Below, one piece after another: positions 8,976 to 19,641 of a stretch of DNA of 25,579 nucleotides. The notes under the pieces were generated by a model. That model was not told where the DNA came from. It was given only the letters and a program-made list of their open reading frames with translations, and did not search any database. Each line of letters starts with the position of its first letter. Position 1 is the first letter of the stretch. Origin of the DNA: Deltaproteobacteria bacterium UBA2385 (GTDB lineage: Bacteria; Myxococcota_A; UBA796; UBA2385); the NCBI GenBank assembly GCA_002343455.1, contig DDSR01000159.1:1-25579 (forward strand), written 5' to 3'. The position numbers and the translations under genes are program-made.

Positions 8976-9404
8976 TCAGATTCGCTGCTGCTGGGTCAGC
9001 ATGACGAACTGCCCCCGGGTCACATCGGGGATCATCGGCATCAGGCCCGTGAAGGGGGTGTAGGGCACGCCGACCTCGACCCGCAGCATCATCCAGCCGT
9101 CTTCTTCGTACCAGACGGAGTTGACGTCGCAGCCCGCCGAGCCGCAGGAGACCCCGCCGTTGGTCAGCACCTCGCGGGCGTGGAGGTTCGCCGCCGCGGT
9201 GATCTCGGTGCCATCGGCGTCCACCCCCTCGATCACGCCGGAGCCGATGCGGCAGGCGTCTCGGGCCGCGCGGGTGATCAGGTACATGCGGGTCTGGAGG
9301 ATCGACAGCTCGACGATGCCGAGGGTCACCAGCAACAGGAACGGCAGGGTGAGGGCGAACTCGATGGCGGCCACGCCGCGCCGGTTCCGAGAGAGGCGCT
9401 TCAT
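8976..9404 (-). CDS. TadE-like pseudopilin (cluster B)
   Basis: A 142-residue protein with leader MKRLSRNRRG, then VAAIEFALTLPFLLLVTLGI as the cleavage site and membrane helix. Gly before the cleavage and Glu at +5 fit the class IVb prepilin rule. The mature region continues RMYLITRAARDACRIGSG, then a region with the cysteines SCGSAGC, and ends PDVTRGQFVMLTQQQRI. The start ATG 9404 overlaps the TGA of the upstream TadE gene (ATGA), so it is the third gene of a coupled TadG-TadE-TadE series. It probably forms or caps a pseudopilus with the two upstream products. No pilus ATPase or secretin is in the window. Confidence 0.87.
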   Translation of the reverse strand: MKRLSRNRRGVAAIEFALTLPFLLLVTLGIVELSILQTRMYLITRAARDACRIGSGVIEGVDADGTEITAAANLHAREVLTNGGVSCGSAGCDVNSVWYEEDGWMMLRVEVGVPYTPFTGLMPMIPDVTRGQFVMLTQQQRI

Positions 9405-9835
9405 GGGGCCGCCGCGCGTTGCCACTCGAGGCGCGCGATCTGGGAGGAGGAGAGGGACTTGCCGTCGCTGACGTAGAGGCCGACCAGGGGGTCGAAGGGC
9501 CGCGAGACCTCGCAGCGCAGGCTGCGCCCGGGGGGATCGCCCCAGGTGTTGGCGGTAAGCACGCAGTCGGTGCACTCCGAGCCGTCCTTGTTGAGCAGGG
9601 CCTGGCCCATGCGCTCCAGCACCCGGGTCTGCACGGCCGCGATGTTCTCGTCGTTGTTGCCCGGGTCCACCAGCGAGCCCGCGCGGCAGCCGAGGTTGGC
9701 CGCGGCGTCCAGGGCCGTCTGGTTGAAGAAGAGCCAGCCGAACTCCATGATCGCGAACACGATCGAGAGCCAGATCGGCAGGCAGAGCACGAACTCGATG
9801 GCGTTGCTTCCACGGCGGCGGCGGACGGTCTTCAT
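9401..9835 (-). CDS. TadE-like pseudopilin with four conserved cysteines (cluster B)
   Basis: A 144-residue protein. The leader MKTVRRRRG and SNAIEFVLCLPIW give a class IVb prepilin cleavage site with Glu at +5, followed by one membrane helix. It is clearly a paralogue of the protein at 1885-2301. Shared features are LCLPIW in the helix, ALDAAANLGCR versus SLEAAANEGCR, a DPG motif, a CxDC pair (CTDC here, CADC there), LRCE followed by SR, and PLVGL. The conserved cysteines GCR, CxxC and LRCE suggest two disulfides in the mature domain. AGGAG within the stop region of the upstream gene, nine bases before the ATG, supports the start. It overlaps the next TadE by four bases. Confidence 0.88.
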   Translation of the reverse strand: MKTVRRRRGSNAIEFVLCLPIWLSIVFAIMEFGWLFFNQTALDAAANLGCRAGSLVDPGNNDENIAAVQTRVLERMGQALLNKDGSECTDCVLTANTWGDPPGRSLRCEVSRPFDPLVGLYVSDGKSLSSSQIARLEWQRAAAP

Positions 9836-9844
9836 GAACGACTC

Positions 9845-11095
9845 CTACTCGACAATGGCCAGCGGCATCTCGCTGATGATCCCGGTCAGGACCTCGACGA
9901 GCTGGCTGCTGTTGGAGACCAGGACCTTGTAGCCGTCGCCCTGGACCATCCCGTCCAGGATCGGGTCGTCCACCACCAGGCTGACGGCCCAGGTGTGGAC
10001 CTCGAGGTTGTTCCAGAGGTCCTCGGTTGCGGCGATGCTGGCGGTGCGGATCTCGGCGATGGTGCGCGGCACGGGGCCCTTGTGCTCGACCCAGCGGTCT
10101 TCAACGAAGCCCTGCGTCTCGCGGATGGCGCCCGAGGTGGCGCCCAGGTTGTTGGGCTTGCCGTCGGTGATGACCAGCATGGCGCGGTAGACGGCGCCCG
10201 AGGTGGAGGCCTGGAACATGTCCTTGGCCAGCAGCACGCCGGTGCTGTGGTCGGTGCCGGGCTCGTCGGTGTACTCGCGGGGCATGTCCGGGTAGCAGCC
10301 GCCGGCGACCGGGCTGGCGAAGTCGTTGCCGTAGGAGGAGTCGCAGTTGGTGCCGTCGGTCGGGTTGGCGTTGAAGGTCCCGATCGGGGCCTTGCTGGCG
10401 ATGTTCAGCTTCTCCCAGTCGCTGCGGATCGCCGCGGCGTTGGCCGGGATCGCGATCTGCGTGAAGGGGGTGTACTCCCAGGCGTAGCGGTTGGTGAAGA
10501 TGGTCATCCCGACCTCGTCGACGCCGCTGGCGGACTCGGTCAGCATGTCGAGCGAGGCCAGCACCGCCGCGCGCCCGTCCGCGAACTTGCTCTCGCCCCA
10601 GGAGCCGGTGATGTCGAGCACGAAGGCGATCTGGAAGCTGCGGGTGGCCGAGGTGGCGGAGGCCCGGACCTCGAAGTCCTCCTTGTCCCAGATCCGCGCC
10701 AGCAGGAGCGGGACCGCGCCGCTGCCCTCGCGGGCGACCTCGACCCGGACGGCGTGGGGCACGGTGGCGGCGGGCCCGAAGCCGACGCCGTCTTCCCACT
10801 GGCCGAACTCGATCACCGGCATGGTGGCAGCCTGCCCGGCGACCTGGTTGACGTCGACCACCCGCTGGGCGGCGGCGGTGGCCGAGACGGTCGAGCCGGT
10901 GTTGCGCAGGACGATCAGCGCGGCCTGGCTGGCCGCGTCGGCGACGTCCTGGGCCTGCGCGGCCGACAGCCGCATGTAGGCGATGTCGATGGACAGGGCC
11001 CCGAAGCCGAGGAGGGTGATGACGGCCGCGGCCAGCATGAGGCTGTAGTTGCCGCGACGGGCACGACAGAAGCGGCCCTTGGGGGTGCGTAGCAT
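9845..11095 (-). CDS. TadG-like protein with von Willebrand factor A domain (cluster B)
   Basis: A 416-residue envelope protein. Residues 11-15 (RARRG) and NYSLMLAAAVITLLGFGAL form the basic leader and membrane helix, followed by AAQAQDVADAASQAAL as in TadG proteins. From about 154 a VWA domain begins: FVLDITGSWGESK carries the MIDAS D-x-T/S-x-S (Asp161, Thr163, Ser165), and TDG at 310-312 gives the later metal-site Asp. TadG-type VWA proteins are thought to act in Flp pilus assembly or adhesion. It is the first gene of a three-gene minus-strand series with the two TadE genes. The start ATG 11095 follows GAGGGATCC. Four cysteines or more lie in the VWA insert (residues 251-267). Confidence 0.9.
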   Translation of the reverse strand: MLRTPKGRFCRARRGNYSLMLAAAVITLLGFGALSIDIAYMRLSAAQAQDVADAASQAALIVLRNTGSTVSATAAAQRVVDVNQVAGQAATMPVIEFGQWEDGVGFGPAATVPHAVRVEVAREGSGAVPLLLARIWDKEDFEVRASATSATRSFQIAFVLDITGSWGESKFADGRAAVLASLDMLTESASGVDEVGMTIFTNRYAWEYTPFTQIAIPANAAAIRSDWEKLNIASKAPIGTFNANPTDGTNCDSSYGNDFASPVAGGCYPDMPREYTDEPGTDHSTGVLLAKDMFQASTSGAVYRAMLVITDGKPNNLGATSGAIRETQGFVEDRWVEHKGPVPRTIAEIRTASIAATEDLWNNLEVHTWAVSLVVDDPILDGMVQGDGYKVLVSNSSQLVEVLTGIISEMPLAIVE

Positions 11096-12575: not shown

Positions 12576-13760
12576 ATGAAGCGCATCTCGACGATCAAGA
12601 AACGCTTTTCGATGGACCAGCTCATCACGGGGATCGAGCTCCCCCAGTGGCTGGATGTCCTGAAAGCCAACGACTTCCAGGTGGACGGCACCTACGCCCA
12701 CCGGGCGGCCTGGATCTCGGCCCTCTCGGTGCCGACCACGGCGCTCAGCGCGGTCGAGGACGCCCGCTTCGGGCGGCAGCTGGCCTCGATGGAGATCGAC
12801 CCGACCCCGGTCTTCGTGCTGGGGCACTGGCGCAGCGGCACCACCCACCTGCACAACCTGCTCGGCCGGGTCCCGCAGCACACCTACTCGACGGTCTACC
12901 AGGTCGTCATGCCGGGCAACTTCCTGACCACCGGCAAGGTCGTGCCCGACCTCTCCGGGCGCTTCATGGACCAGACCCGGACCTACGACAACGTCAAGCA
13001 CGGCTGGCACGAGGCGGCCGAGGACGAGATCGCCCTGGCCAAGCTGACCGGGCTGTCCCCCTACATCTCGTTCATGTTCCCGGACAAGGCCCCCAAGTAT
13101 GAGAAGTACATCGACTTCCAGGAGGCCACCGGGGCCGAGCGTGAGCGCTGGAAGGAGGCGCTGCGCTACTTCATCAAGAAGATCATGCTGGCCACCGGCG
13201 GCAAGCGGGTCATCATCAAGAGCTGCCCGCACACCGCGCGCATCCGCTTGATCCTGGAAGCCTTCCCCGACGCCCGCTTCGTCTTCATCCACCGCAACCC
13301 CTACGAGGTCTACCTCTCGACCTTGCACATGCGCAGCCACACGGACTGGGAGAACTTCTTCCACAAGCCCGACGAGAGCTGGGAGACCCAGCGCGAGCGG
13401 CAGACGCTGCTGCTAGGCCAGCGCATCTACGAGCGCTACCTGGAAGATCGGCACCTCATCCCCGAAGGCAACCTGGTCGAGCTGGCCTACACCGAGCTGG
13501 CCGGCAACGAGATGGCCGTGATGGAGCGGCTCTGGGCCACCCTGCGGCTGGAGGGCTGGGAGCGCGCCGAGCCCGTCCTCCAGCAGTACGTCGACGGCCT
13601 CAAGGGCTACCAGACCAACAAGCTCAAGCCCATCTCCAAGAAGGACAAGGACGCGGTCTACCAGCACTGGGCCGCCGTCTTCGAGGCCTTCGACTACCCC
13701 CGCGAATACCCTCCGCCTTCCCCTCCTTCTGCGACCCCCGTCCAGGAGACCACGCCATGA
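12576..13760 (+). CDS. PAPS-dependent sulfotransferase family protein
   Basis: A 394-residue protein of the Sulfotransfer_3 type, which moves a sulfate group from PAPS to a hydroxyl or amine. The 5'-phosphosulfate loop is GHWRSGTTHLHNLL (residues 83-96, with Arg86, Ser87, Thr89 and Thr90). The 3'-phosphate motif is RFVFIHRNPYEVYLST (234-249, with Arg240 and Ser248). Between them, residues 140-155 include the family's acidic HEAAEDE segment. The C-terminus ends in a proline-rich stretch after YPREYPPPSPPS. GGGGGAGG sits at good spacing before ATG 12576. The stop shares ATGA with the next gene, an aminotransferase, so the two are coupled and likely act on the same product. The substrate is unknown. 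Confidence 0.9.
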   Translation: MKRISTIKKRFSMDQLITGIELPQWLDVLKANDFQVDGTYAHRAAWISALSVPTTALSAVEDARFGRQLASMEIDPTPVFVLGHWRSGTTHLHNLLGRVPQHTYSTVYQVVMPGNFLTTGKVVPDLSGRFMDQTRTYDNVKHGWHEAAEDEIALAKLTGLSPYISFMFPDKAPKYEKYIDFQEATGAERERWKEALRYFIKKIMLATGGKRVIIKSCPHTARIRLILEAFPDARFVFIHRNPYEVYLSTLHMRSHTDWENFFHKPDESWETQRERQTLLLGQRIYERYLEDRHLIPEGNLVELAYTELAGNEMAVMERLWATLRLEGWERAEPVLQQYVDGLKGYQTNKLKPISKKDKDAVYQHWAAVFEAFDYPREYPPPSPPSATPVQETTP

Positions 13761-15193
13761 TCGACCTGCGCACCGAGATCGACGCCCAGCTCACCGAAGC
13801 CAGCGACCAGACCAGGAAGCACGTCCACCCGAAGCTGATGAAGATGTTCCAGCTCGCCGGGATGAACGCCAGCTTCGTGCGGGCCGAGGGCCAGTACCTC
13901 TGGGACGCCCAGGGCAACCGCTTCCTGGACTTCCTCACCGGCGGCGGGGTCTACCTGATCGGCCGCAACCACCCCGGCGTGCGGCAGGCGATCAAGGACA
14001 CGGTCGACATGGACCTGCCGAACTGGTCCATCGTCAACCCGGCCCTGCTGTCGGGGCTGCTTGCCGGCAAGCTGCTGGAGAAGGCCGGCGACCACTACGG
14101 CAAGGTCATCTTCGCCAACACCGGGACCGAGTGCACCGAGGTCGCCGTGCGCTTCGCCCGCTACGTCACCCGGCGGCGGCGCTTCCTGTACCTGGAGGGG
14201 GCCTTCCACGGCCGCACCTACGCCGCGATCAGCATGTGCGGCTCATCGGCGCTGCGCGAGGGCCAGGAGCCCTTGATGCCGACCTGCACGCCGATCAAGG
14301 CCAACGACATCAAGCAGCTCCGCCGCGAGCTGGCAATGGGCGACGTCGCCGGCTTCATCTACGAGCCCGTGCAGGGCATGACCTGCGAGGTGCTGGACAA
14401 GGCCTACCTGCGCGAGGCCGAGATCCTGTGCGAGCAGTACGGCACCCTGCTGATCGCCGACGAGGTCCAGACCGGCCTCTGCCGCACCGGGCCCTGGTTC
14501 CGCAGCACCGAGGACGGCATCCGTCCCCATATGCTCACCTGCAGCAAGATCCTCTCCGGCGGCGCCATCCCCGTGGGCGCCGTCCTGGTCAGCGAGGAGG
14601 TCTACCAGAAGGTCTTCGAGAAGTTCCAGAGCGGGCCCTTCTACTTCTCCACCTTCGCCGAGGGCAACCTCGGCATGGCCGCCGGCCTCGCCACCATCGA
14701 CGCCCTCGAGGAGATGGACGCCCCCAACCGGGTGGTCGAGCTGGGCAACCGGCTCGAAGACGGCATCAAGGAGCTGGCGAAGCGCTACGACTGCATCGCC
14801 GGCCAGAAAGGCCTGGGCCTGATGCGCTGCGTCTACTTCAAGGACAGCGCCGACCCCAAGCTGCTGGCCCAGCAGCGCCTGCTCGCCGCCGGGGACAAGG
14901 CCGCCTTCGGCGCCGCCGTCCACGTCGACATGTACCGCGAGCACCGCATCCTGCTGCAGATCCCCGGCCCGGGCGCCAACGCCATCAAGTTCCTGCCGCC
15001 GGCCTGCGCCACGCACGAGGACATCGACTACTTCCTGTCCTCGCTCGACGATGTGCTGGCTCGCTACTACGCCGAGGCCGGCCCGGCGATCAACCTGGGC
15101 CGCACGGCCTTGATGGCCACCATGGACCAGGTCGCCGACGCCATCCCCGAGCAGTACATCCCGCCCTTCCTGCGCAAGGCGCTCAAGCGCTGA
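13757..15193 (+). CDS. Class III PLP-dependent aminotransferase
   Basis: A 478-residue cytoplasmic enzyme of the acetylornithine/ornithine/4-aminobutyrate aminotransferase class. It shows NTGTECTEVAVRFAR for the PLP phosphate site, FHGRTYAAIS, IADEVQTGLCRTG with Asp235 that holds the PLP ring nitrogen, and the Schiff-base lysine Lys264 in CSKILSGGAIPVGA. Class III enzymes move an amino group from the omega carbon or from alpha amino acids. The sequence near Lys has SKILSGG where most have GKALGGG, a mild deviation. It is coupled to the sulfotransferase by ATGA and followed after 16 bases by the FtsH-like ATPase gene. The combination suggests amino and sulfate modification of one metabolite or lipid, which is inference. 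Confidence 0.92.
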   Translation: MIDLRTEIDAQLTEASDQTRKHVHPKLMKMFQLAGMNASFVRAEGQYLWDAQGNRFLDFLTGGGVYLIGRNHPGVRQAIKDTVDMDLPNWSIVNPALLSGLLAGKLLEKAGDHYGKVIFANTGTECTEVAVRFARYVTRRRRFLYLEGAFHGRTYAAISMCGSSALREGQEPLMPTCTPIKANDIKQLRRELAMGDVAGFIYEPVQGMTCEVLDKAYLREAEILCEQYGTLLIADEVQTGLCRTGPWFRSTEDGIRPHMLTCSKILSGGAIPVGAVLVSEEVYQKVFEKFQSGPFYFSTFAEGNLGMAAGLATIDALEEMDAPNRVVELGNRLEDGIKELAKRYDCIAGQKGLGLMRCVYFKDSADPKLLAQQRLLAAGDKAAFGAAVHVDMYREHRILLQIPGPGANAIKFLPPACATHEDIDYFLSSLDDVLARYYAEAGPAINLGRTALMATMDQVADAIPEQYIPPFLRKALKR

Positions 15194-15209: not shown

Positions 15210-16664
15210 GTGAACGCCTCGACCCGTCGCACCCTGCTCGTCTGGGCGGCGCTCGTCGTCGCCTTCCTCGCCATCTTCTGGCTCACCCGGGCCGAGGAGC
15301 TGCCCAGCCGGCCCTGGGCGGATGTCGAAGCGGCGATCGAGGCGGACGAGCTGGAGGGCATCCGCTGGGTCGACGGCGTCGAGTACGAGCTCAGCACCCG
15401 CGGGGGAGAGCTCTTCGCCAGCGAGGGCGTGCTGACCTCCGAGCAGATGGAGGTGCTGGCCGAGCGCGGGATCTACCTGGACTACGACATGGGCCTGCTC
15501 GGCATCTTCGGCTCCCTGCTGGGCCTGGTGCCCCTGCTGGTGGTGGTGGCGGCGGTGGTCCTGGGCCTGCTCTGGTACGCCCGCCGCAAGCAGGTCCAGC
15601 AGGGCGGCGGGGCGGCGCTGGAGATGCGCAAGAGCCGGGCGAGGCTGGTGGAGACGCCGCCGGCGACCCGCTTCGCCGATGTCGGCGGCTGCGAGGAGGC
15701 CAAGGCCCGGCTGCTCGATGTGGTCGACTACCTCAAGCACCCCGAGGCCTGGGCCGCCGCCGGCGCCCGCGCACCCCGCGGCATCCTGCTGGAGGGTCCG
15801 CCCGGCAGCGGCAAGACCCTGTTGGCCCGCGCCGTCGCCGGTGAGGCCGGGGTCCGCTTCTTCGTCGTCTCGGGCTCGGAGTTCGTCGAGATGTTCGTCG
15901 GCATCGGCGCCGCCCGGGTCCGCGATCTCTTCGAGCAGGCCGGCAAGGTCGCGCCCGCCGTCATCTTCATCGACGAGCTGGACGCCATCGGGCGCCGCCG
16001 CGGCTCGGGGGTGGGGCAGTGGAACGAGGAGCGAGAGCAGACGCTCAACCAGATCCTCGTCAGCATGGACGGCTTCGAGCCCCAGCAGCGGGTCGTCGTC
16101 ATCGGCGCGACCAACCGCTCCGACATCCTGGACCCCGCCCTGATCCGTCCGGGCCGCTTCGATGTGCGCCTGCGCATTCCCCCCCTGGACCCCAGCTCGG
16201 CTGGCCAGGTGCTGCGCATCCACGCCCGCGGCAAGCCGCTGCACCCCGAGGTCGACCTGGACGCCTGGGCCGCCAACGCCATCGGCGCCACCGGGGCCGG
16301 CCTGGAGCAGCTCCTCAACGAGGCCGCCCTGCTGGCCGTGCGGCGGCGAGAGGCCCGCGGCGGCGCGGTCGAGCTGCGCGACGAGGACCTCGCCGACGCC
16401 CTGGCCGCCCTGCGCACCCAGGGCGAGGCCTTCGAGCCGCTGGACCGGGCGCTGGTCGACAGCGCCTGGCAGCTCTCCCGCGGCGACGGCAGCCAGCGGG
16501 CCCGGATCCAGCTCGCCGACGGCGAGGTCGTCGAGGGTGTCCTGGTCTGGGCCGACGGCAACTTCCTCAAGCTGCGGCGTGAGGACGGCAGCGAGGTGGC
16601 CCTGGCCCGTCGGCAGGTGCTGCGGGTCGAGGTGCCCGCCCCTGCGGCCCCGCCAGGGACCTGA
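15210..16664 (+). CDS. FtsH-like membrane AAA ATPase lacking the M41 peptidase domain
   Basis: A 484-residue protein that begins like FtsH: membrane helix at 8-26, an extracytoplasmic FtsH_ext-like region 30-90, a second helix at 96-123, then the AAA module. Walker A is GPPGSGKT (196-203), the pore loop is EFVEMFVGIGAARVRDLF (224-241), Walker B is VIFIDELDAI (251-260), and the second region of homology is TNRSDILDPALIRPGRFD with Arg313 and Arg316. After the lid (GATGAGLEQLLNEAALLAVR, 359-378), FtsH would have a zinc peptidase of about 200 residues with HEAGH. Here only about 90 residues follow. EPLDRALVDSAWQLSRG occupies the HEAGH position without any ligand, then a beta-rich end (ARIQLADGEVVEGVLVWADG). 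The start is GTG 15210, with a weak, distant GAGGGG. The M50 gene follows after one base. Confidence 0.88.
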   Translation: MNASTRRTLLVWAALVVAFLAIFWLTRAEELPSRPWADVEAAIEADELEGIRWVDGVEYELSTRGGELFASEGVLTSEQMEVLAERGIYLDYDMGLLGIFGSLLGLVPLLVVVAAVVLGLLWYARRKQVQQGGGAALEMRKSRARLVETPPATRFADVGGCEEAKARLLDVVDYLKHPEAWAAAGARAPRGILLEGPPGSGKTLLARAVAGEAGVRFFVVSGSEFVEMFVGIGAARVRDLFEQAGKVAPAVIFIDELDAIGRRRGSGVGQWNEEREQTLNQILVSMDGFEPQQRVVVIGATNRSDILDPALIRPGRFDVRLRIPPLDPSSAGQVLRIHARGKPLHPEVDLDAWAANAIGATGAGLEQLLNEAALLAVRRREARGGAVELRDEDLADALAALRTQGEAFEPLDRALVDSAWQLSRGDGSQRARIQLADGEVVEGVLVWADGNFLKLRREDGSEVALARRQVLRVEVPAPAAPPGT

Positions 16665-16665
16665 C

Positions 16666-17289
16666 GTGGACGGACTGCTCCAGCGCCTGCTCCTGCTGGT
16701 GCCGCTCTGGCTCTCGCTCTCGGTCCACGAGTGGGCCCACGCCTGGACCGCCAACCGCCTGGGAGACGACACCGCCCGCCTGATGGGCCGGATGCGCCTG
16801 GACCCGCTGGTCCACCTGGACTGGCTGGGCACCGTCCTGTTGCCCCTGCTCGGCGTGCCCTTCGGCTGGGCCCGGCCGGTGCCGGTCAACCCGCTGCGCT
16901 TCAAGGGCCTCTCCCAGGACACCGGGCTGCTGCTGGCGGCGGCCGCCGGTCCTGCCAGCAACCTCGTCCTGGCGCTGCTCGCCGCCCTGCTCTACCGCCT
17001 GCTCGCCCTGCTCCCGGCGGCGCCGCTCGCCGAGGCCGCCCTGGCGCTGCTGGAGATCGCCGTCCCGCTCAACCTCGCCCTGGCCGCCTTCAACCTCCTC
17101 CCGGTGCCCCCCTTGGACGGCGGGCGGGTCGTGGACGGCCTGATCCCCTACCGCTGGCGAGAGGGCTGGGCCCAGGTCCAGCGCGTCGGGCCGGTGCTGC
17201 TGGTCCTGATCCTGGTCGGCGCCGAGCTCGGAGGTGCGGGCATCCTGGCGGGGCTGTCCGGTTGCTCGAATCGGCTGATCGGTCGCTGA
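16666..17289 (+). CDS. M50 family (site-2 type) intramembrane metalloprotease
   Basis: A 207-residue polytopic protein. The first helix carries HEWAHA (His21, Glu22, His25), the zinc-binding HExxH, and the later PPLDGGRVVDGL (Asp151) gives the third ligand region. AAAAGPASNL (91-100) and the NLLP motif match short M50 proteins of the SpoIVFB/YwhC group (site-2 protease). These cut transmembrane or membrane-near segments. I start at GTG 16666, one base after the ATPase stop (TGACGTG), because VDGLLQRLLLLVP gives a normal N-terminus and no other start fits before HExxH. The tight junction with the protease-less FtsH-like ATPase suggests the two act together. It is convergent with the Rieske-flavodoxin gene, 32 bases away. 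Confidence 0.88.
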   Translation: MDGLLQRLLLLVPLWLSLSVHEWAHAWTANRLGDDTARLMGRMRLDPLVHLDWLGTVLLPLLGVPFGWARPVPVNPLRFKGLSQDTGLLLAAAAGPASNLVLALLAALLYRLLALLPAAPLAEAALALLEIAVPLNLALAAFNLLPVPPLDGGRVVDGLIPYRWREGWAQVQRVGPVLLVLILVGAELGGAGILAGLSGCSNRLIGR

Positions 17290-17321: not shown

Positions 17322-18413
17322 TCAGTCCAGCCGATGGGCCTTGCGGCCCCCCCGGGCTCGGTGGGGCTCGGCCAGGGCGCCGCCGAGCATCATCGCGGCC
17401 ATGTCCACGCTGCGGTCGACCAGCGCCCGGGTCCCCTCGCGCAGCGACTCGCTGTTCTGCACGGATCGGATGTTGTTCTCCATGTCCTCGGCCGTCCAGC
17501 CGCGGGAGTGGGCGACATAGGGGAACTGCGGGAACTGCACCCCCAGCTCGGCGAAGAAGCCCAGCATCTGGCCGACGGTGCCCTGTACATTGTCCTGTCC
17601 GCCGGTGACGATGAAGGCGGCGGTCTTGTTGCGGAGCAGGTGCCGGTTGTTGATGGTCTCCTGGTTCTGGATGCAGTTCATGCGCTCCACCATCTTGAAG
17701 TACAGGCTGCTGGCCGCCCCCCAGCGGATGGGCGTCGCCAGCACGTAGACATCGGCCCAGTGGACCAGGGCCTCGTAGACCTGGTCCAGCTGGTCGGTGG
17801 GGTCCATCTGGGTGATGGAGCAGGGCCAGGTGCAAGCGCGCGCCGAGCGGGAGTAGAAGCCCTCGCAGGCGCGGAAGTCCAGGTCCCGCAAGCGGATCAT
17901 CCGGGTCTCGCAGCCGCGAGCGGCGCCGTGGCGCAGCGCCTCCTCCAGCAGCAGCTCGGAGGTGCTGGGGCGGGGGTGGTCCTTGGTCATCGCCGTGGTG
18001 GAGAGGCCGACGATGCGGATGGGCCCGGCCTCGCGCTGCACGGGCCGGGCCAGCGGGTGAGGCGGGTGAGGCTTGCGCTGGCGAGGCGTGGCGCTGTTCA
18101 GGTCGAGCAGCAGGCGACCGTCCTCTACCTTCAGGGTGTAGGCGGGAACGGCGTCCTCCTCGAAGCCGGGCTCGCCCTTGCCCGTGGCGTGGTGGAACTT
18201 CCAGAAGTGCCAGGGGCACTCCAGGTAGTCGCCGTCGAGCCTGCCCTCGCCCAGGGGGCCGCCGGCGTGGTTGCAGACCGCGGAGATGGCCGTGAAGGCG
18301 CCGTCTCGGCAGACCAGCGCGATCTTCGTGCGGCGGGCGAGGAGCTGCTGCACCGGCTTGCCGGTCAGCTCGCTGGCGAGGCCAAGATCGACCCAGTCGT
18401 GCGTGTCGGACAT
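17322..18413 (-). CDS. Rieske [2Fe-2S] domain fused to flavodoxin-like NAD(P)H oxidoreductase
   Basis: A 363-residue protein. Residues 5-106 form a Rieske ferredoxin-type domain with cluster ligands Cys47, His49, Cys66 and His69 (CNHAGG and CPWHFWKFH). After a proline- and basic-rich linker (107-130), residues 131-345 form a flavodoxin-fold domain of the NAD(P)H-dependent FMN reductase kind: PIRIVGLSTTAM at the phosphate loop, ADVYVLATPIRWGAASS and AAFIVTGGQDNVQGTVGQ. Cysteines 173, 184 and 188 lie where iron-sulfur flavoproteins carry a cluster motif, though not in the standard spacing. It could pass electrons between a flavin and the Rieske cluster in one chain. GGAGGTTCG directly before ATG 18413 fixes the start. 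It is divergent from the SGNH gene. Confidence 0.88.
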   Translation of the reverse strand: MSDTHDWVDLGLASELTGKPVQQLLARRTKIALVCRDGAFTAISAVCNHAGGPLGEGRLDGDYLECPWHFWKFHHATGKGEPGFEEDAVPAYTLKVEDGRLLLDLNSATPRQRKPHPPHPLARPVQREAGPIRIVGLSTTAMTKDHPRPSTSELLLEEALRHGAARGCETRMIRLRDLDFRACEGFYSRSARACTWPCSITQMDPTDQLDQVYEALVHWADVYVLATPIRWGAASSLYFKMVERMNCIQNQETINNRHLLRNKTAAFIVTGGQDNVQGTVGQMLGFFAELGVQFPQFPYVAHSRGWTAEDMENNIRSVQNSESLREGTRALVDRSVDMAAMMLGGALAEPHRARGGRKAHRLD

Positions 18414-18468
18414 CGAACCTCCGGGGTGGGTGGTATCGTGCCCGGAGCGGCGACGCGGAGGAGAGCGG

Positions 18469-19641
18469 ATGAGAGGAGGGCAGCTTGCCAAGGCCGCGAT
18501 GGGGCTTGCCGTGGCCTCCACGCTGCTGCTCCTGGCCGAGGGGGCGGTCCGCGCGGTCGCCGGGCCTCCCCCGGCGCCGGTCCAGGTCCACCGGGTCGCG
18601 GGCGAGGTCGAGCGCTTCTTCTCCATCGACGGTGAGCGCGTCTCGACGACCTACCAGCAGCACCCTCCCGTCGACTCCTTCTCGCGGCGGGCGGAGGGCC
18701 GGCGGGTCGTGGTGTTGGGGGGCAGCAGCGTACACGAGGCCCGCAACCTCAAGGCGACGGCGGCGGAGTGGCCCGGTCGCCTCGCCCAGATCCTCGACGC
18801 CGAGGTCCTCAACCTGGGCGAGCCGGGGCTGGACAGCTTCGACCACCTCCGCATCGTCGAGGAGCTGGAGGCGCTGGAGGTCGACGCGGTCGTGCTCTAC
18901 GCGGGGCACAACGACATCGGCAACACCCTGATGCGCGACCGCTACGGGGGCCTCTGGGGAGGGCTGAGCGCCCACCTCCTCGCCGGGCTGGAGCGCTCGC
19001 AGCTCTTCTGGCAGCTTCGGCGGGGGCTGCTGGCGGCAGAGGAGGCCGCCGCGACGGGGCGCGTCGCGTCCGGCGAGAAGCACCTGGACCCCGAGCGCCG
19101 GGCGACGGCCCTCCGGCACTTCGAGGCCAACATCGCCCGCGTCGTGGAGCTCCTGGCCGCGCGGGCCACGCCGCTGGTGCTGGTCGTTCCGACGGGTGAT
19201 CTGCTGGCGAAGCCGACCCGGGGCCCCTGCGATCCCCTGCTGGGCTGTGCCGACGAGCACTTCGCGGCCGCCTCCGCCCAGCTCGGGCTGGACCGGCAGG
19301 CGGCAGCCGGCCACCTCCGCGCCGCGCGGGACGCGAACCTGGTCGGCCCGCGCGCGCCGACGGTGCTGCAGGACTACCTCCGCGCCCTGGGCGATCGGCC
19401 GGGGGTTCGGGTCGTCGACGCGGAGCGTGATCTGCCGCAGAGCGAGGCCGCCCTGGTGCCGGACTCCTCCCTGTTCGTCGATCCGATCCACCTCTCCACG
19501 ATGGGCCACGCCGCTCTCGCCGCGATCGTCGCGCCCGTCGTGGCGGAGCTCGCGCATATCCCCTATCGCCCGACCTCGGCCTCGAATGGCGAGACCAAGA
19601 GGCGAAAGCCGGGGCGCAGCTCGCGTTCCGGTCGAAAGTAG
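18469..19641 (+). CDS. SGNH/GDSL-type hydrolase, membrane-anchored or secreted
   Basis: A 390-residue protein. Residues 7-30 are hydrophobic (LAKAAMGLAVASTLLLLAEG), either an anchor or an uncleaved signal. The hydrolase core shows block I VVVLGGSSVHEA with nucleophile Ser86, block II NLGEPGLDSFDH, block III GHND (146-149), and block V DPIHLSTMGH with Asp338 and His341. SGNH enzymes of this layout are acyl-esterases, often working on cell-wall or exported glycans; the exact substrate cannot be told. The tail (from about 365) is basic and serine-rich (ETKRRKPGRSSRSGRK) and looks disordered. GGAGGAGAG seven bases before ATG 18469 sets the start. The 55-base gap to the divergent Rieske gene must hold both promoters. 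Confidence 0.85.
   Translation: MRGGQLAKAAMGLAVASTLLLLAEGAVRAVAGPPPAPVQVHRVAGEVERFFSIDGERVSTTYQQHPPVDSFSRRAEGRRVVVLGGSSVHEARNLKATAAEWPGRLAQILDAEVLNLGEPGLDSFDHLRIVEELEALEVDAVVLYAGHNDIGNTLMRDRYGGLWGGLSAHLLAGLERSQLFWQLRRGLLAAEEAAATGRVASGEKHLDPERRATALRHFEANIARVVELLAARATPLVLVVPTGDLLAKPTRGPCDPLLGCADEHFAAASAQLGLDRQAAAGHLRAARDANLVGPRAPTVLQDYLRALGDRPGVRVVDAERDLPQSEAALVPDSSLFVDPIHLSTMGHAALAAIVAPVVAELAHIPYRPTSASNGETKRRKPGRSSRSGRK

Follow-up and report, generated by a model that had tools for sequence, protein, structure and literature searches.

The motor and the knife of FtsH are located on one chain. The locus described here raises the question of what an FtsH-type membrane ATPase does when the peptidase domain is missing from its chain and a separate M50 metalloprotease is encoded by the next gene. 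The two genes are found in a window of 25,579 nucleotides, the whole stretch of DNA that was analyzed, from Deltaproteobacteria bacterium UBA2385. The coordinates of the two genes and of their principal features are presented in Table 1.

Table 1. Features of the ATPase and M50 protease genes in the window
Feature	Position	Strand	Basis
FtsH-type membrane AAA+ ATPase without M41, 484 aa, GTG 15210 to TGA 16664	15210..16664	+	ORF, Pfam, NCBIfam, conserved motifs
First transmembrane helix of the ATPase, aa 5-29	15222..15296	+	hydropathy
Second transmembrane helix of the ATPase, aa 92-126	15483..15587	+	hydropathy
AAA module, aa 192-324, with Walker A, pore loop, Walker B, Asn 302, Arg 313 and Arg 316	15783..16181	+	Pfam PF00004, invariant columns
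Walker A motif GPPGSGKT of the ATPase	from 15795	+	sequence
C-terminal region of the ATPase, aa 385-484, where M41 would be; Hfq/Sm-like part at about aa 432-470	16362..16661	+	Pfam Hfq_1, PDB 3hfn
Small M50 (site-2 type) metalloprotease, 207 aa, GTG 16666 to TGA 17289	16666..17289	+	ORF, Pfam, alignment A2
HEWAH motif of the M50 protease	16726..16740	+	sequence; H21, E22 and H25 invariant in 18/18
PPLDGG motif of the M50 protease	17107..17124	+	sequence; P148-G152 invariant in 18/18

The ATPase and M50 Protease Genes

The product of the upstream gene was analyzed using Pfam, NCBIfam, hydropathy, and an alignment of the window ATPase with 17 relatives (alignment A1, 18 sequences). An N-terminal transmembrane hairpin precedes an FtsH-type AAA+ module, for which the Pfam AAA family gives an E value of 6e-42. 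The score against the NCBIfam FtsH model TIGR01241 is 391 bits, under the cut-off of 600 bits, and the match covers residues 111-382 only. The Walker A (GPPGSGKT), pore-loop (FVEMFVG), and Walker B (FIDE) motifs are intact, as are N302 and R313/R316. Residues G199, K202, T203, D255, E256, N302, R313, and R316 are invariant in alignment A1. The C-terminal M41 peptidase with its HExxH motif is missing, and no M41 match was obtained for the protein with Pfam. When the ATPase profile was searched against the PDB, FtsH chains were matched over residues 7-393. The protein thus resembles FtsH and the other M41 AAA proteases in its N-terminal membrane hairpin and in an AAA+ module with the same motifs, and differs from them in the absence of M41 or HExxH, in its Hfq/Sm-like C-terminus, and in being co-encoded with an M50 protease.

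The downstream gene starts one base beyond the ATPase stop codon. Its product is matched by Pfam Peptidase_M50 (PF02163) at 54.7 bits, the cut-off being 27.2, and the HExxH zinc motif and the LDG motif of the M50/site-2 proteases are both present and invariant in 18 of 18 sequences (alignment A2). We take HEWAH to have the zinc-binding and catalytic role and PPLDGG to contribute the third zinc ligand. The M50 profile matches RseP, aq_1964, MJ0392, and SpoIVFB in the PDB with E values of 1.7e-7, 4.4e-7, 7.6e-6, and 0.014, respectively. The HExxH and LDG motifs are shared with these proteases; unlike them, the window protein is small and is matched by PF02163 alone, with no PDZ or CBS domain. 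It is further distinguished from the known M50/site-2 proteases by its genetic tie to a membrane AAA+ ATPase. None of the key catalytic residues of the ATPase or the M50 protease varies among the 18 aligned pairs.

The original prediction, which was made from the DNA alone, had described an FtsH membrane layout with intact ATPase motifs and no M41 domain, followed after one base by an M50 gene with HExxH and PPLDGG motifs. The reading frames, the spacing of the two genes, the Pfam and NCBIfam matches, hydropathy, and alignment A1 all agree with this description, in which the Hfq/Sm-like part of the ATPase C-terminus was overlooked. A check for a normal FtsH elsewhere in the genome had been suggested, and two further loci with true M41 domains were found; one starts at a contig edge and the other has a masked stretch, and both are incomplete as read. 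M50 matches are present on four other contigs of this genome, the assembly of which consists of 496 contigs and is 87.6% complete.

Additional genes were identified in the window. A sulfotransferase gene and a class III aminotransferase gene (12576-15193, + strand) share an overlap of 4 bases, and 16 bases separate their end from the ATPase gene downstream. The top NCBIfam match of the aminotransferase is PigE, with 297 bits against a cut-off of 850. These two genes were considered as parts of the system and were ruled out, being absent beside the pair in other loci. At 17322-18626 (- strand), a Rieske iron-sulphur domain and an FMN-reductase/flavodoxin-like domain are predicted to be fused in one protein, and TadE/Tad-like pilus assembly genes occur at two places in the window, 1885-2382 and 8976-11095 (both - strand).

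The C-Terminal Region of the ATPase

The region that occupies the place of M41 is conserved across the first 18 aligned sequences, those of the window and 17 relatives. Pfam Hfq_1 (PF21979) is matched in all 18 members, with E values of up to 1 and a best value of 4.4e-7, and is the only Pfam family found in more than one of the 18 aligned C-terminal regions. For the window protein, the isolated region scores 27.6 bits against the Hfq_1 cut-off of 27, and the whole protein scores 24.7 bits, which is below the cut-off. A profile of the region (A6) was constructed from 27 diverse members and searched against the PDB. The cyanobacterial Hfq 3hfn is matched with an E value of 1.5e-4, a second Hfq structure (6gwk) with 0.016, and an LSM-domain chain with 0.18; beyond these three entries, no PDB match was obtained at E values of up to 1. 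Together, the Hfq_1 matches and the profile matches to Hfq/Sm families in the PDB indicate an Hfq/Sm-like sequence in part of the C-terminal region, each individual match being modest.

The sequence match to cyanobacterial Hfq (PF21979; PDB 3hfn, Asl2047) includes a common W-x-D. Cyanobacterial Hfq is a stand-alone protein of 72 residues, whereas the matching part in the window belongs to an AAA+ ATPase. It is unusual for a membrane AAA+ protein to carry an Hfq-like part. Among the titles and abstract openings of the open-access papers listed, there was no description of an Hfq-like domain on FtsH or another membrane AAA+ protein and none of an M41-less FtsH beside an M50 gene, the latter in keeping with the original statement that no described system of this shape was known to its author.

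The chloroplast FtsHi pseudo-proteases are likewise FtsH-type ATPases that lack protease activity. Excerpts of one report describe the identification of FtsHi1, 2, 4, and 5 together with FtsH12, which was proposed to be in a motor complex (PMC8042743). Excerpts of another state that the C-terminal protease domain of FtsHi3 has been lost (PMC9020784). The FtsHi differ from the window ATPase in being plant proteins, and the excerpted text of PMC9020784 mentions neither an M50 partner nor an Hfq-like domain. An inactivated or displaced peptidase domain of the FtsHi type is not found in the window ATPase: Pfam detects no M41 remnant, and the region is Hfq/Sm-like.

Conservation of the Gene Pair

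The ATPase was searched for in 93 relatives in a first survey, and 30 loci were retained. An M50 gene adjoins an ATPase without M41 in 18 of these loci (L003-L019 and L027), and no M50 match is found inside the stretch fetched for the other 12. A scan of the genome contigs with the whole ATPase provided 594 matches, of which the best 80 were kept; within these 80, the top segments stop between residues 378 and 416, as for ordinary FtsH. A profile of the C-terminal region (A3) was then applied to 377 genomes from the phylum and gave 27 matches, 24 strong and 3 weak. The weak matches (G116, G117, and G240), which cover the C-terminal region but not the AAA part, were left out. The strong matches comprise 20 of the 71 genomes of the window's class together with G176, G219, G298, and G300. 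The pair is present in 4 of the 90 genomes of a second class of the phylum.

The M50 gene directly follows the ATPase gene, in the same order and on the same strand, in all 24 loci with a strong match to the C-terminal region. Two of the 24 ATPases are incomplete: that of G062, which is below the profile threshold and was entered in the pair table by hand, runs off its contig, and that of G052 is without the middle of the AAA module. The ATPase frame of G052 (L155, 820-1575) is without profile positions 263-402 and adjoins a full M50 gene, which may reflect misassembly or a damaged motor. The candidate M50 start codon is located -3 to +4 bases from the last base of the ATPase stop codon in the 18 loci examined; the genes of the relatives were called by a home-made finder that uses base composition by codon position, and their start codons are unsure. 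An upstream neighbor gene is common to 11 of 210 locus pairs and a downstream neighbor gene to 4 of 231. Chance adjacency was ruled out, since M50 adjoins the ATPase in 24 of 24 loci while the neighbors change. No conserved substrate gene was seen beside the pair among the compared loci.

Many genomes of the window's class have neither the ATPase nor the M50 protease. G110 and G141, which are 97-98% complete and belong to the genera of G219 and G176, respectively, are without the pair while close kin have it, and the distribution is therefore patchy. The pair is patchy in occurrence, yet it stays whole. Broken-frame fragments of both genes are present in G038 (L166, 4715-5537) where its relative G030 has an intact pair. 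Upstream of the ATPase, G038 retains an intact gene with 95% identity to that of G030 over 385 residues; on the M50 side, the two genes that adjoin M50 in G030 are missing, and the next gene beyond is still there. This joint decay may alternatively be a misassembly.

A close M50 protein, defined by a profile match with an E value of 6e-77 or better, is encoded in 24 of the 71 class genomes, of which 20 have the ATPase region and four (G016, G028, G035, and G064) do not. The protease can therefore exist without the ATPase. Six further class genomes have weaker M50 matches, one of which is the G038 remnant. The ATPase region without a close M50 was not found in any of the 71 class genomes. An AAA protein of another kind, with 187 bits to profile A1, is encoded in G028 (L159, 2259-3677, - strand) about 2 kb from the unpaired M50 gene and on the opposite strand.

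A tree was constructed from 24 paired and 6 unpaired M50 proteins; the unpaired proteins of G028 and G066, which the home-made finder did not call, and that of G070 are not part of it. The paired proteins do not form a clean clade, and the unpaired proteins of G016, G035, and G064 are in the same unresolved fork. The pairwise distances of the ATPases and of the M50 proteins agree, with a Mantel r of 0.78 for the 22 complete pairs (the partial ATPases of G052 and G062 being excluded) and 0 of 2000 permutations as high. This agreement fits joint inheritance, and shared ancestry or species history alone can also produce it.

Relatives beyond the phylum were obtained by a profile search of 5.8 billion proteins, in which the 7993 candidates with the most common words were scored and the best 120 were listed. 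The C-terminal region is present in 108 of these 120 matches, counting the window protein, and HExxH is found in none of the 108. In the other 12, HExxH occurs ten times; the remaining two are P0097, a partial sequence, and P0113, in which there are two AAA modules. The motif patterns are found in the 108 listed proteins as follows: Walker A in 108, Walker B in 104, the pore loop in 105, the sensor in 108, and the arginine finger in 106. The M50 Pfam domain is detected in 0 of the 120 matches listed, and no ATPase-M50 fusion was seen among them. In the FtsH relatives P0007 (887 residues) and P0008 (864 residues), one chain contains two AAA modules and, after them, an M41 motif.

Most of the listed proteins that carry the region have no taxon label; the labels that do appear are Myxococcota, Pseudomonadota, Deltaproteobacteria, Planctomycetaceae, and Pirellulales, and 2 of the 108 are labeled Planctomycetes. 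For 12 of 108 listed ATPase relatives, the longest contig has exactly the size of the longest contig of some member of the 119 listed M50 relatives, and 120 shifted controls gave 0.63 such matches on average and never more than 2. The ATPase set in this comparison consisted of P0003-P0112 minus P0007 and P0008, with P0097 included and the window excluded. One of the 12 size-matched cases corresponds to G046, which is already among the directly checked loci. Six of the 12 size-matched ATPases are nearest, among seven reference tips, to the two Planctomycetes-labeled ATPases, at long distances of about 1.5 to 1.8. A second M50 list, containing 73 new proteins, provided no further contig-size matches. 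The 12 size matches and their placement are indirect evidence for the pair in Planctomycetes or their vicinity as well.

The original prediction would have been contradicted by a hidden in-frame M41 domain, by absence of the pair from related genomes, or by the lack of a physical or genetic link between the two proteins. A frameshifted M41 domain was looked for and ruled out: the same C-terminal region without HExxH is present in 107 other listed proteins, and the ATPase C-terminus aligns over its full length with relatives that have neither M41 nor HExxH, so there is no frameshift. The pair was recovered from every one of the 24 genomes with a strong match to the ATPase C-terminal region. A genetic link is well supported by the adjacency of the genes amid changing neighbors, by the closeness or overlap of the ATPase stop codon and the M50 start codon, and by the one joint decay.

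Possible Functions of the Pair

A functional link between the ATPase and M50 genes is well supported, and the two proteins probably work as one system, since related bacteria keep both genes together. As judged from the sequences, the two genes seem on balance to form one functional unit, a split system for ATP-driven membrane proteolysis. This split-protease reading, which rests on genes and sequences, is the best available. Physical contact between the ATPase and the M50 protease, and the direction in which one acts on the other, are what we infer.

FtsH threads substrates by its pore loop, and M50 enzymes cut transmembrane segments. In the split protease, the ATPase would assemble as a hexamer at the cytoplasmic face of the membrane, where the Hfq-like parts may build a ring or a docking platform. 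The motor would pull membrane-protein substrates, and the M50 protease would then cut them inside the membrane; alternatively, the ATPase would clear the product that M50 has cut. We propose only tentatively that a hexameric FtsH-type motor, with an Hfq-like ring replacing the cutting chamber, might hand substrates through or beside the ring to the membrane M50 protease, and that the pair might represent an undescribed class of ATP-dependent intramembrane protease. In ClpXP and HslUV, the motor and the peptidase are also on separate chains; unlike the window pair, these are soluble chambers with serine or threonine peptidases and not membrane enzymes.

The main rival to the split-protease reading is a controlling or chaperone role, in which the ATPase would not feed the M50 protease but would serve as its dedicated lock or chaperone, assembling, gating, or releasing the protease in response to ATP or to stress on the membrane. 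This role, which we consider rather doubtful, is consistent with the close M50 proteins that also occur without the ATPase in four class genomes. The Hfq-like part could dock: its best PDB match is a cyanobacterial Hfq, and excerpts of a review describe binding of Synechocystis Hfq to the pilus ATPase PilB1 at its C-terminus (PMC4390875), so a protein of the Hfq group is able to make such contacts. The pore-loop pattern, kept in 105 of the 108 listed proteins, argues against control by the ATPase, as it points to polypeptide threading and not to gating alone. It is unlikely that the two proteins act sequentially and not as a single machine, with M50 clipping first and the ATPase then extracting and unfolding the pieces, which would pass to a further protease, for example FtsH or ClpP. 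In regulated intramembrane proteolysis, the product of the site-2 protease goes to a separate AAA+ protease. Excerpts of PMC12203970 are consistent with such a transfer, and the two M41 loci and the M50 matches on four other contigs of the same genome favor the sequential scheme; however, the strict adjacency in 24 of 24 loci exceeds the needs of a loose pathway.

The profile similarity to Hfq and LSm chains would also fit an RNA-binding membrane ATPase, made so by its Hfq/Sm-like part and regulated by the M50 protease. We regard this as very improbable: the similarity shows a fold relation only, and binding to a protein partner is reported for an Hfq of this group, although excerpts of the same review also term Synechocystis Hfq an RNA chaperone (PMC4390875). 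Even harder to credit is that the two genes are adjacent by an accident of shared ancestry, the ATPase and the M50 protease being functionally unrelated. All 24 directly checked loci are from one phylum, as an accident of ancestry would have it, but the neighborhoods are reshuffled around an unbroken pair, and both genes have decayed jointly in G038. The pair is also patchy in its occurrence, being absent from G110 and G141, and yet M50 is found beside the ATPase wherever the ATPase occurs.

The prevailing view is that no motor takes part in cleavage by site-2 proteases. If the pair does represent the class of intramembrane protease proposed above, site-2 proteolysis would gain an engine. With a conserved pair in which the motor is apart from the knife and the knife is an intramembrane enzyme, it would be possible to ask in a clean genetic setting if transmembrane segments can be drawn by a motor into an active site that lies within the membrane.
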